Below are positions 39,850-63,688 of a DNA stretch of 64,000 nt, one piece after another. The position numbers and the translations under genes were made by a program. This stretch comes from Sinorhizobium sp. RAC02. GTDB lineage: Bacteria > Pseudomonadota > Alphaproteobacteria > Rhizobiales > Rhizobiaceae. Numbering within the stretch: the stretch's first letter is position 1; the number at the start of each line of letters is the position of its first letter. Under the pieces are notes generated by a model, which saw only the letters and a program-made list of their open reading frames with translations, was not told the DNA's origin and ran no database searches. The DNA lies in NCBI RefSeq assembly GCF_001713395.1, contig NZ_CP016450.1, positions 1,054,001 through 1,118,000 on the forward strand, given 5' to 3'.

Positions 39850-39993
39850 TTAGCGGAAGGAACGGGAAGCGATGTCGCGGATGTCGTAACGGGTCAGGCC
39901 GATGTCGGACAGCGTGTGGTTCGACAGGTTGCCAAGTTCGTTCATCGTGCGGCGGTAGGAAATCCAGTTCTTTGCGATGCGGATCGGGTTCAT
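39850..39993 (-). CDS. DUF1127 mini-protein 1
   Basis: 47 residues. The DUF1127 pattern is clear: a basic helix (IRIAKNWISYRRTMNELGNL), then LSNHTLSDIGLTRYDIRDIA and a basic end. The start ATG 39993 has GAGGAGC about 8 nt upstream. Members in Brucella, Agrobacterium and Rhodobacter are small RNA-linked or stress-linked proteins, and some bind RNA. It has its own promoter with a T-N11-A box at 40101-40115 and its own terminator. Confidence 0.88.
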   Translation of the reverse strand: MNPIRIAKNWISYRRTMNELGNLSNHTLSDIGLTRYDIRDIASRSFR

Positions 39994-40049
39994 GGTCTTG
40001 CTCCTCAGAAGCGGTTGGCCGGGAGGTCTGCTCGCCGGTTTGTGAGGTC

Positions 40050-40115
40050 TATATACGCCCGCTCTTTGTTAATGTGCAGTGCAAAGAAAATGCAGCTGCT
40101 ATGCATTTGTGCAAT
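40050..40115 (-). promoter_or_regulatory. promoter unit 1 (DUF1127-1): T-N11-A box, TTGCACTGCACA element, -10
   Basis: Read on the minus strand: ATTGCACAAATGCAT at 40115-40101 (T-N11-A), TTGCACTGCACA at 40084-40073, then 17 nt and TATATA (40055-40050). The box ends 45 nt before the -10, placing its centre near -65, the classical recognition position of LysR-type regulators. The left half of this box is the least symmetrical of the four. Confidence 0.6.
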
Positions 40116-40261
40116 AAGATGATTAACGAGCGGGCATCTGGTTCCACTGAGGGCAAAAGGCAGAAAGTGCCGATATTCCGGGCAGATAGGGCGATGAGCA
40201 CCGGATTCATCGATGTTGCGGATGAAAAAACGAGACATTGTGCGCCGCAAAAACGGGCAAA

Positions 40262-40299
40262 CGAAAACGCCCTCCGGTGGGAAGCCGGAGGGCGTTTGA
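40262..40299 (-). terminator. terminator of the second DUF1127 gene
   Basis: A 13-bp stem, AAACGCCCTCCGG (40265-40277) with CCGGAGGGCGTTT (40285-40297), has a 7-nt loop. On the minus strand it continues into TTTTCG. Confidence 0.85.
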
Positions 40300-40325
40300 A
40301 ATGGATCCGTTCAGGATCGTTCGGC

Positions 40326-40469
40326 TTAGATCGAAGCCTTGCGAGCGATGTACGGGATATCGCTGCGGCCGATGCCGAGGTCGCGGAGTTCACGGTCCGA
40401 CATACGGCCGAGTTCGTTGACGGTCTGACGGTACTTGCGCCAGTTGTTAAAAGAGCGTGCCAGGTTCAT
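40326..40469 (-). CDS. DUF1127 mini-protein 2
   Basis: 47 residues, same length as the first copy. A basic N-terminal helix (LARSFNNWRKYRQTVNELG) is followed by RMSDRELRDLGIGRSDIPYI and a basic tail, the DUF1127 hallmark. The start is ATG 40469. It shares about half of its positions with mini-protein 1 (conserved NW, R, NELG, L, D, LG, R.DI, IA), so the two are paralogues. Its promoter carries the most symmetrical T-N11-A box (40593-40607). Confidence 0.9.
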   Translation of the reverse strand: MNLARSFNNWRKYRQTVNELGRMSDRELRDLGIGRSDIPYIARKASI

Positions 40470-40542
40470 GTCTTTACCCCTTTCATGGGCTTCCTACTGG
40501 GCGGCCGCTCGTCTTTGGCGCCGCCCTGATCTGATGTATTGA

Positions 40543-40607
40543 AATATACGCTGCATCGCCGAAAAGAACAGCGCTGTTACGGCACGGCACCCATGCGTTT
40601 TACGCAT
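40543..40607 (-). promoter_or_regulatory. promoter unit 2 (DUF1127-2): T-N11-A box, palindrome, -10
   Basis: On the minus strand ATGCGTAAAACGCAT (40607-40593) is a perfect dyad ATGCGT/ACGCAT. It is 44 nt upstream of TATATT (40548-40543). Between them, at 40578-40567, is a perfect palindrome AACAGCGCTGTT at the place occupied by TTGCACTGCACA in units 1 and 4. Confidence 0.65.
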
Positions 40608-40700
40608 GTCAAGCGGAAATTTTGGCGAAATTCTGGCGAAAATCCGGGCGATTCGCCACAAAGGTAAATGCGGCCATGCGTGCTTGTGTGGGTGCAGTGC

Positions 40701-40827
40701 AAAAAACAACGCCCGCCGGGGGAGGAGATCCGGCGGGCGTTGCTGATGTCGATTGGCAACCTGGGAGGAGGAGGGGCTGCCAATCCTGTCGGGGACGTTG
40801 GGAGGAGGAGATCGTCACCCGACCGAT
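40701..40827 (-). ncRNA. alpha-r14/cuckoo-type trans-acting sRNA, copy A
   Basis: Three hairpins on the minus strand. Hairpin 1 (40823-40788): stem GTCGGG(bulge T)GACG with CGTCCCCGAC. Hairpin 2 (40785-40751): GATTGGCAGC with GTTGCCAATC. Hairpin 3 (40741-40708): 12-bp stem AACGCCCGCCGG with CCGGCGGGCGTT, followed by GTTTTTT, the terminator. All three loops expose CTCCTCC (CTCCTCCTCCC in the first two), complementary to Shine-Dalgarno sequences. This matches what I know of the alpha-r14/cuckoo and CcsR RNA families. Ends are inferred: 5' from the TATATA box, 3' from the T-run. No ORF explains the conservation. Confidence 0.8.
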
Positions 40828-40833
40828 GACGTT

Positions 40834-40899
40834 TATATAGTCCGCCGGGCCTTTGGACAGAAGCGCCGGATGAGAATGGCACCCATGCACTCTGCGCAT
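40834..40899 (-). promoter_or_regulatory. promoter unit 3 (sRNA A): T-N11-A box and -10
   Basis: On the minus strand ATGCGCAGAGTGCAT (40899-40885) has dyad halves ATGCGC/GTGCAT with one mismatch. It is followed, after exactly 45 nt, by TATATA (40839-40834). The predicted start near 40827 falls 4 nt before the first sRNA hairpin. GGGTGCC directly follows the box, as in unit 2. Confidence 0.65.
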
Positions 40900-41002
40900 A
40901 TGCAGCAGACCAACGAAGCTCGGTTGCGCAAGCTTTAAGCTGGCGGGTGCGGCGTGGGGAGAAAATCGGTTATTTGGGGCGACGAGCCATGCGCCTTGCG
41001 CA

Positions 41003-41127
41003 AATAATAACGCCCGCCGGGGGAGGAGGTCCAGCGGGCGTCACTAAAGATGATTGGCAACTGGGAGGAGGAGTGTTGCCAATCGCATCGGAGGGACGCT
41101 GGGAGGAGGAGTGCGTCGCTCCGAATT
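41003..41127 (-). ncRNA. alpha-r14/cuckoo-type trans-acting sRNA, copy B
   Basis: Same three-hairpin plan as copy A. Hairpin 1 (41123-41089): CGGAG-C-GACGC with GCGTC-C-CTCCG, one internal C-C mismatch. Hairpin 2 (41084-41052): perfect 10-bp GATTGGCAAC with GTTGCCAATC. Hairpin 3 (41041-41010): ACGCCCGCTGG with CCGGCGGGCGT and a weak T-tract (TTATTATTT). Loops carry ACTCCTCCTCCCA twice and ACCTCCTCCC. No convincing promoter lies directly upstream; transcription may come from unit 4, about 140 nt further up, followed by processing. 5' end uncertain. Confidence 0.77.
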
Positions 41128-41269
41128 CCATGTCGATCCCCGTTTCCGGGGCGTCGGGTCTTCGGCATCATGCCGGGCGTTCGACCAGTCCGCCCTCCCG
41201 TTTCTCTGTCGCCTCACACTACGCGGCGCCTTGATTTCCGGGCCAGATCATTTCTGATCCGATGACCAA

Positions 41270-41335
41270 ACTATAGCTCCCCTTTTTGATTTTGTGCAGT
41301 GCAATATCGGCATGGATGATATGCGCCGGATGCAT
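41270..41335 (-). promoter_or_regulatory. promoter unit 4 (upstream of sRNA B): T-N11-A box, TTGCACTGCACA, -10
   Basis: On the minus strand ATGCATCCGGCGCAT (41335-41321), then TTGCACTGCACA (41304-41293), a 17-nt spacer and TATAGT (41275-41270). Box to -10 is 45 nt, identical to unit 1. The transcript would start near 41263 and run through sRNA B. The leader 41128-41263 has no recognisable gene, only a 10-codon ORF (41219-41251). Confidence 0.6.
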
Positions 41336-63569: not shown

Positions 63570-63688
63570 GTAAATCTCCCTTACTATTCAGCGGCTTACG
63601 AAGAATATAAGCCATGCATTTATGGCATTGCTGAGCCGGACTTTCTCCCCTATGGTTTTCTTCAAGAGGCAAACATAGGGAGGAACGC

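Follow-up and report, generated by a model that had tools for sequence, protein, structure and literature searches.

Promoters with LsrB-type boxes at a DUF1127 and ar14 RNA locus of Sinorhizobium sp. RAC02: a probable split operon

In Sinorhizobium meliloti, the LysR-type regulator LsrB binds the promoter of the small RNA (sRNA) NfeR1, a member of the ar14 family, at positions -72 to -57, through a T-N11-A site of the form TGCA-N6-GCAT; gel-shift assays, point mutants and a strain deleted for lsrB support the site, and the promoter requires LsrB for its activity (PMC10746234). In the promoter PabcR1 the LsrB site lies at -61 to -49 and reads GCAT-N3-TG-N3-T (PMC8844928), hereafter the published core. 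VtlR/LsrB also activates DUF1127 genes of Brucella, the small-protein gene atu1667 of Agrobacterium, and AbcR sRNAs (PMC7486931, PMC12595884). In Rhodobacter, the DUF1127 gene ccaF1 and the RNAs CcsR1-4 share one transcript, driven by RpoHI/RpoHII and processed by RNase E, at what is called the CIN1 locus (PMC10253847). The function of DUF1127 proteins is debated: RNA binding and contact with the kinase PhoR have both been put forward (PMC12501420). Here we describe a locus in a 64,000-nucleotide (nt) stretch of Sinorhizobium sp. RAC02 (the window), where sRNA B, sRNA A, DUF1127-2 and DUF1127-1 (in transcription order) are encoded on the minus strand in the interval from a DUF2157 gene to trmFO. 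Sequence comparison indicates that these are very probably four units with promoters of their own, activated by LsrB/VtlR, and suggests that they are the split form of a DUF1127-sRNA operon.

Like the NfeR1 promoter, the locus has a T-N11-A box at the same position before an ar14 RNA, in a genome with an LsrB-type gene; the S. meliloti work concerns one promoter, with NtrC as antagonist (PMC10746234), whereas here there are four neighbouring units, two of them protein genes. With the VtlR regulon of Agrobacterium and Brucella it shares the scheme of one LysR-type activator for DUF1127 genes and AbcR sRNAs, and the core at DUF1127-2 and sRNA A, but the available portions of those papers do not name ar14 RNAs as targets (PMC7486931, PMC12595884), and here DUF1127-1 and sRNA B have no core. 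As at the CIN1 locus with its cuckoo RNAs, short DUF1127 genes adjoin CcsR-like RNAs; unlike the Rhodobacter form, the RNAs lie upstream of the genes and have separate putative promoters with LsrB-type boxes (PMC10253847). The CcsR1 model RF02791 matches copy B weakly, at 32.9 bits, below its gathering threshold of 65.3. The parts are of kinds already known, and the locus is an addition to a regulon already described; what merits specialist attention is the splitting of the operon. In the open literature searched we found no publication joining DUF1127 and NfeR1; a printed account of the split may exist elsewhere. The locus would bring small proteins and anti-Shine-Dalgarno RNAs under one redox-linked regulator within one small stretch.

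Four boxes at a fixed distance from the -10 element

The initial annotation had placed four 15-nt boxes on the minus strand, 45, 44, 45 and 45 nt upstream of TATA-like -10 hexamers, and these spacings were confirmed (coordinates in Table 1). Because each box ends 44-45 nt before the hexamer and the inferred start lies 6-7 nt after it, all four boxes span about -72 to -58, so that the proposed T-N11-A position agrees with the LsrB site published for NfeR1 (-72 to -57; PMC10746234). The GCAT core, computed from the same spacings, falls at about -61 to -49: the dyad covers the PnfeR1-type site, and its last four bases together with the next nine make up the PabcR1-type core. A loose form of this arrangement (AT[TG][CG]-N7-GCAT, 42-47 nt, TATA) occurs four times in the window, each time at one of the four boxes, as compared with a mean of 0.03 and a maximum of 1 in 200 dinucleotide-preserving shuffles of the window, a post hoc figure given that the pattern was derived from the four sites themselves. 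More telling tests come from the conservation of the boxes among 21 congeners, from further promoters in the genome and from other families.

We assign the genome to Shinella on sequence grounds: its TrmFO and the Shinella yambaruensis protein share 95% identity, and a tree places the two side by side. In the sample of 21 congeners (nine of 47 ar14-model matches, all below 26 bits, were discarded), the locus was present in every genome, with best pieces 71-100% identical, and the second ar14 copy (copy A) was present in 17. No relative that keeps the genes had lost a box in the genus alignment: it is retained in every unit examined, 21/21 for DUF1127-1, DUF1127-2 and sRNA B and 17/17 for sRNA A. 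Mean column identity is 0.99 in the box versus 0.74 in the left flank for DUF1127-1, 0.87 versus 0.62 for sRNA B, and 0.77 versus 0.52 for sRNA A, where the half-sites are invariant and the middle drifts; at DUF1127-2 the left flank (0.96) exceeds the box (0.87), and the flank comparison is uninformative there. The claim of a shared dyad needs qualification at one unit: the DUF1127-1 box ATTGCACAAATGCAT is not a true ATGC-N7-GCAT and is inconspicuous in the matrix described below, even though none of the other three boxes is as well conserved by column. Two congeners differ in layout. In L114, about 0.86 kb of extra, insertion-like sequence separates sRNA B from sRNA A, and in L119, which has no copy A, the interval from ar14 B to DUF1127-2 still contains an ATGC-N7-GCAT dyad that may be left over from the promoter of copy A.

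To score promoters across the genome (6.63 Mb in three contigs, C1-C3), we used a matrix of eight sites outside the window, chosen by a pattern drawn from the initially annotated boxes and left out one at a time when scored. Controls were 4000 random window stretches of 210 nt, which may include true sites; tested stretches measured 125 to 225 nt. By this measure 13 of the 17 ar14, ar15 and DUF1127 promoters of the genome beat 99% of controls (5/5 ar14, A and B included; 3/4 ar15; 5/8 DUF1127), and three of the four window units are among them: the scores of the DUF1127-2, sRNA A and sRNA B boxes (25.2, 14.8 and 13.8) were reached by 0.2%, 0.8% and 0.9% of controls, respectively. Apart from DUF1127-1, the failures are an AbcR2-like second ar15 copy and two longer DUF1127 proteins; the first of these agrees with the literature, because AbcR2 of S. 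meliloti is RpoH1-dependent and LsrB-independent (PMC8844928). The box is also found at 10 of 13 further ar14, ar15 and DUF1127 promoters of the genome, so that the "compact regulon" of the initial annotation was drawn too narrowly. The pattern TGC-N7-GCAT-N42-46-TAT gives 41 genome rows versus 10 for its reverse; seven of the 41 correspond to six of the tested promoters and 34 lie elsewhere. In two Agrobacterium genomes, 7 of 11 ar14-like matches have an upstream matrix score of at least 15. A sixth ar14 match of the window genome (L006, 40.6 bits, below the cut-off) has no box upstream and was taken as false. The three other ar14 copies of the genome (L002, L003 and L005) show, by eye, a further CCTCCT(C/T)CC motif immediately ahead of the Rfam match that could belong to a fourth hairpin.

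Operon-type and free-standing ar14 RNAs

The sample of other genomes consisted of the best 80 trmFO loci among the matches listed, which contained 86 ar14-model matches; six were dropped (five below 30 bits, one cut by a contig end) and 80 were classified. A class-wide ar14 sample contained too few genomes of the order and was set aside. Two main architectures were observed: 31 matches start -9 to 43 nt from the stop codon of a DUF1127 gene (operon-type) and 29 are autonomous, the remaining 20 lying in tandem behind another ar14. A box form accompanies 21 of the autonomous matches and none of the tandem ones; within 260 nt upstream it was found for 4 of the 31 operon-type matches, where it may be the DUF1127 gene's own box. 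The DUF1127 promoters of the operon-type loci all score at least 8 in the Shinella matrix (31/31), versus 4.9% of 3030 random stretches, which may include true sites, and 20 of the 31 have the published core. Over all loci, 74 of 105 stretches upstream of DUF1127 genes reach this score versus 22 of 80 upstream of ar14, which fits the expectation that operon-type RNAs mostly lack a separate promoter. Outside the Rhizobiaceae, the RNA comes right after the DUF1127 stop codon, behind one box-bearing promoter (31/31) from which gene and RNA would be co-transcribed; in the Rhizobiaceae it is free-standing and usually boxed.

The distribution of the two architectures was compared with a quick TrmFO tree of 48 rows (single gene, midpoint root), from which 33 of the 80 loci, those having no classified ar14 and including both Agrobacterium loci, were left out. 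In this tree, a single group with support 85, nested among operon-type families, gathers the 20 autonomous rows from Shinella, Sinorhizobium, Rhizobium and their surroundings; apart from these, autonomy is seen in one row alone, a weak Bauldia match (42.5 bits). Pararhizobium haloflavum, near the base, has both operon-type and autonomous ar14 matches. The simplest reading is that the operon split in the Rhizobiaceae, with both parts staying under LsrB, although a single-gene quick tree is no proof of this. The window locus would then represent a CIN1-type operon in split form, whose gene and RNA are still contiguous behind a single box in other families of the Hyphomicrobiales; it would give an example, open to comparison, of an sRNA that was once part of an mRNA and became a gene of its own while staying in its regulon, and the apparent origin from a single transcript offers a reason for the co-regulation.

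Two further arrangements were seen in this sample. In Aurantimonas, arrays of six and four ar14-like matches (L059, 5083-5890; L067, 2192-2687) stand directly behind a DUF1127 gene, recalling CcsR1-4 of Rhodobacter. In the DUF1127 promoters of Microvirga and a relative (L075, L077, L086, L092 and L095), TGCTGCATTGCACA or something close to it directly follows a TATA rather than lying at -65.

LsrB control and two promoter types

The regulator proposed at the outset for the DUF1127 genes and sRNAs, VtlR/LsrB, fits what we found: its named targets match those in print, the boxes lie at the published position, and an LsrB-type gene appears to be present. A LysR protein of 302 amino acids (aa) is encoded at C1:410170-411075, flanked on one side by a trxB-like Pyr_redox_2 (pyridine-nucleotide oxidoreductase) frame and on the other by two ar15 (AbcR) RNAs and an ArsR-type gene. 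The published order is trxB-lsrB-abcR-abcR-arsR (PMC8844928), and from LysR family membership and this order the gene is likely of LsrB type. The protein is the sole match at E 1e-80 in the genome; NCBIfam supplied no LsrB name, the protein being under every cut-off among the 25 matches listed. Elsewhere in the order, some genomes have weak ar14 matches no more than about 0.5 kb from their LsrB gene (G301:C81, G264:C1, G321:C385); these are possibly AbcR relatives.

In the mechanism that we propose, LsrB/VtlR would bind the dyad at about -72 to -58 and recruit RNA polymerase, as proposed for NfeR1. The RNAs A (NfeR1/SmelC397-like, 124 nt) and B (SmelC398-like, about 259 nt) would block translation of transport and metabolism mRNAs, and the two 47-aa DUF1127 proteins would be made under the same LsrB command. 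From the sequence features, direct control appears well supported at DUF1127-2 and sRNA A is probable at sRNA B and is no more than possible at DUF1127-1; at the last two it is less sure than at the other two units, because the published core is missing there. The proposal that one LysR-type regulator co-activates all four units is supported by the boxes, their position and their conservation, and at DUF1127-2 and sRNA A also by the core.

A number of observations weigh against LsrB control of all these promoters. None of the 21 congeners has the published core at DUF1127-1 or sRNA B, and 11 of the 31 operon-type DUF1127 promoters lack it too. DUF1127-1 fails the matrix, its best nearby score (6.3) being reached by 8.8% of controls and lying off the annotated box. 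Eight of the 29 autonomous ar14 matches have none of the three box forms searched. At the expected -10 place, TATA is replaced by TAC, TAG or TATT forms in 5/17 sRNA A, 4/21 sRNA B and 2/21 DUF1127-1 promoters within the genus (the last two, L116 and L119, have TAGA in that position). Recovery of the eight training sites by the matrix is partly circular, the independent cases being the window units, the ar14 on C3, the ar15 on C2 and the other families, and likeness among paralogous promoters may aid recovery. In B. melitensis, a DUF1127 gene having no VtlR motif rises in a vtlR mutant (PMC7486931, PMC12595884). Co-occurrence of LsrB and ar14 across the order was tried as evidence and dropped: LsrB is found in 112 of 121 genomes and ar14 in 40 (15 above the cut-off), and because LsrB is nearly universal the comparison is no test.

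The missing core follows a pattern. Among the congeners, it is present at DUF1127-2 (20/21) and sRNA A (17/17) and at neither DUF1127-1 nor sRNA B (0/21 each), while the sequence TTGCACTGCA occurs no more than 40 nt from the box in the DUF1127-1 and sRNA B promoters (21/21 each) and never in those of DUF1127-2 (0/21) or sRNA A (0/17). This mutual exclusion between the pairs suggests an alternative, in which LsrB acts directly only at DUF1127-2 and sRNA A, and the other two promoters form a second class, a box plus TTGCACTGCA about 16 nt further on, served by another mode of LsrB or by a different LysR-type regulator. The failure of DUF1127-1 in the matrix points the same way, as does an Agrobacterium sRNA of about 225 nt that is VtlR-dependent and for which the proposed box was not found upstream (PMC7486931, PMC12595884). 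The sRNA B box, however, still scores 13.8, a value reached by 0.9% of controls, and keeps the same 44-45 nt spacing, and three other ar14 copies of the genome have an ordinary box. We consider this alternative unlikely, though it deserves to be taken seriously.

Within the preferred reading of LsrB control at all four units, TTGCACTGCA may be an activation site of an LsrB tetramer. A fuller version of that reading, to which we give about even credence, is that NfeR1-type sRNAs are the emancipated 3' part of an LsrB-driven DUF1127 mRNA: the RNA would have split off in the stem of the Rhizobiaceae, gained its own promoter and been duplicated, with the LsrB box kept or re-acquired, and B would represent a second LsrB promoter class that the core misses. 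If this is true, one transcript gave rise to a whole regulon of small units. A promoter class may also escape searches that use the published VtlR core.

sRNA copies A and B

Both RNA copies named in the initial annotation are real members of the ar14/NfeR1 family by the covariance model Rfam RF02344 (scores in Table 1). Copy A folds into three hairpins with anti-Shine-Dalgarno loops, and three C/U-rich motifs align between A and B, whose minimum-energy fold with its leader is different. Two of the four units had been assigned to DUF1127 genes and one to sRNA A, as we also find; the fourth, which had been described as one that "points at" sRNA B, most likely serves as promoter for a longer ar14 RNA that includes a leader and has a predicted length of 259 nt. 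From its predicted start to the ar14 core there are 134 nt, present in 19 of the 21 congeners and deleted in two, in which the promoter lies close to the core. The 19 leaders have a common structure of 26 pairs, with 96.7% of cells paired and nine pairs changed on both sides; by each of five measures this covariation exceeds that of every one of 500 shuffles, and it also exceeds that of slid versions, an excess that relatedness can also give. Leader and core together, taken as 268 nt, fold with a z of -3.7.

Deep sequencing of S. meliloti found SmelC397, of 124 nt, and SmelC398, of 217 nt, 151 nt upstream on the same strand (PMC2873474). SmelC397 is NfeR1, and SmelC398 was met in a single publication of the literature searched. 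The window likewise has an adjacent same-strand pair with the longer RNA upstream (124 and predicted 259 nt, 177 nt apart), and we take A and B as counterparts of SmelC397 and SmelC398 by analogy of size, order and three Sinorhizobium/Ensifer loci, S. meliloti itself not being among these loci. In these the predicted length of B is 216 nt (Sinorhizobium sp. 6-70), 218 nt (Ensifer adhaerens) and 203 nt (S. glycinis), with gaps to A of 159-166 nt.

Copy B could instead be silent or processed, the promoter at 41275 driving a separate leader RNA of which the ar14 core is merely the 3' end or a remnant. The 134 nt between start and core would fit this, as would the fact that inspection of the genus loci by eye showed nothing resembling a promoter immediately ahead of the core, and the observation that in S. 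meliloti only one of six NfeR1 copies is reliably visible on northern blots. Yet no other ar14 match in the genome is as good as the B core, which is kept in 21/21 congeners, the two leader-deleted congeners have their promoter near it, and in two of the three Sinorhizobium/Ensifer loci leader plus core come within a nucleotide of the 217 nt of SmelC398 (PMC2873474), the third falling short; we therefore find a silent or processed B improbable. That the boxes at all four units are chance matches or functionless relics is hardly credible: the pattern was indeed drawn after the four sites had been seen, but four were observed against 0.03 expected per window, all congener units examined keep them at 71-100% overall identity, and the box was recovered at other promoters of the genome and in other families.

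Two further ideas about the RNAs were rejected. Pairing of sRNAs A and B with the DUF1127 mRNA starts, as in a feed-forward loop, is not special, with ranks of 18 and 19 of 39 for DUF1127-1 and 34 and 33 of 39 for DUF1127-2. Open frames of 53 and 78 aa across sRNA B have no Pfam match, and the ATG at 41131 is, by eye, not kept in most congeners.

Table 1. Positions in the window of the genes, RNAs and putative promoter elements of the locus.
Feature	Position	Strand	Basis
DUF1127-1, 47-aa small protein, adjoins trmFO	39850..39993	-	Pfam PF06568, 53.5 bits (cut-off 23.3); 21/21 genus loci
Putative -10 of DUF1127-1, TATATA	40050..40055	-	TATA in 19/21 congeners, TAGA in 2
Second site TTGCACTGCA, DUF1127-1 promoter	40075..40084	-	sequence reading; at most 40 nt from box in 21/21 congeners
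DUF1127-1 box ATTGCACAAATGCAT, imperfect dyad	40101..40115	-	pattern position; kept in 21/21 congeners, mean column identity 0.99; missed by matrix
DUF1127-2, 47-aa small protein	40326..40469	-	Pfam PF06568, 65.1 bits (cut-off 23.3); 21/21 genus loci
Putative -10 of DUF1127-2, TATATT	40543..40548	-	TATA in 21/21 congeners
DUF1127-2 LsrB-type box ATGCGTAAAACGCAT, published core GCAT-N3-TG-N3-T present	40593..40607	-	box 21/21, core 20/21 congeners; matrix 25.2
sRNA copy A (about 124 nt), member of the ar14/NfeR1 family with three anti-Shine-Dalgarno loops	40704..40827	-	Rfam RF02344, 96.1 bits (cut-off 58.8); fold z -6.7
Putative -10 of sRNA A, TATATA	40834..40839	-	TATA in 12/17 congeners, TAC or TAG forms in 5
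sRNA A LsrB-type box ATGCGCAGAGTGCAT, published core present	40885..40899	-	17/17 congeners; matrix 14.8
ar14 core of sRNA copy B	41005..41129	-	Rfam RF02344, 120.3 bits (cut-off 58.8); 21/21 congeners
sRNA B 5' leader, structured, predicted start about 41263	41130..41263	-	kept in 19/21 congeners; covariation; predicted total 259 nt
Putative -10 of sRNA B, TATAGT	41270..41275	-	TATA in 17/21 congeners
Second site TTGCACTGCA, sRNA B promoter	41295..41304	-	sequence reading; 21/21 congeners
sRNA B LsrB-type box ATGCATCCGGCGCAT	41321..41335	-	21/21 congeners, published core 0/21; matrix 13.8

Further high-scoring box-like sites occur in the window at 41003 (minus strand), just behind sRNA B, and at 63614-63628, near the window end. 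The 5' untranslated region of DUF1127-2 (40470-40537, minus strand) is, by eye, strongly conserved in the genus and may form a GGGCGGCGCC...GGCCGCCC hairpin before the ribosome site.

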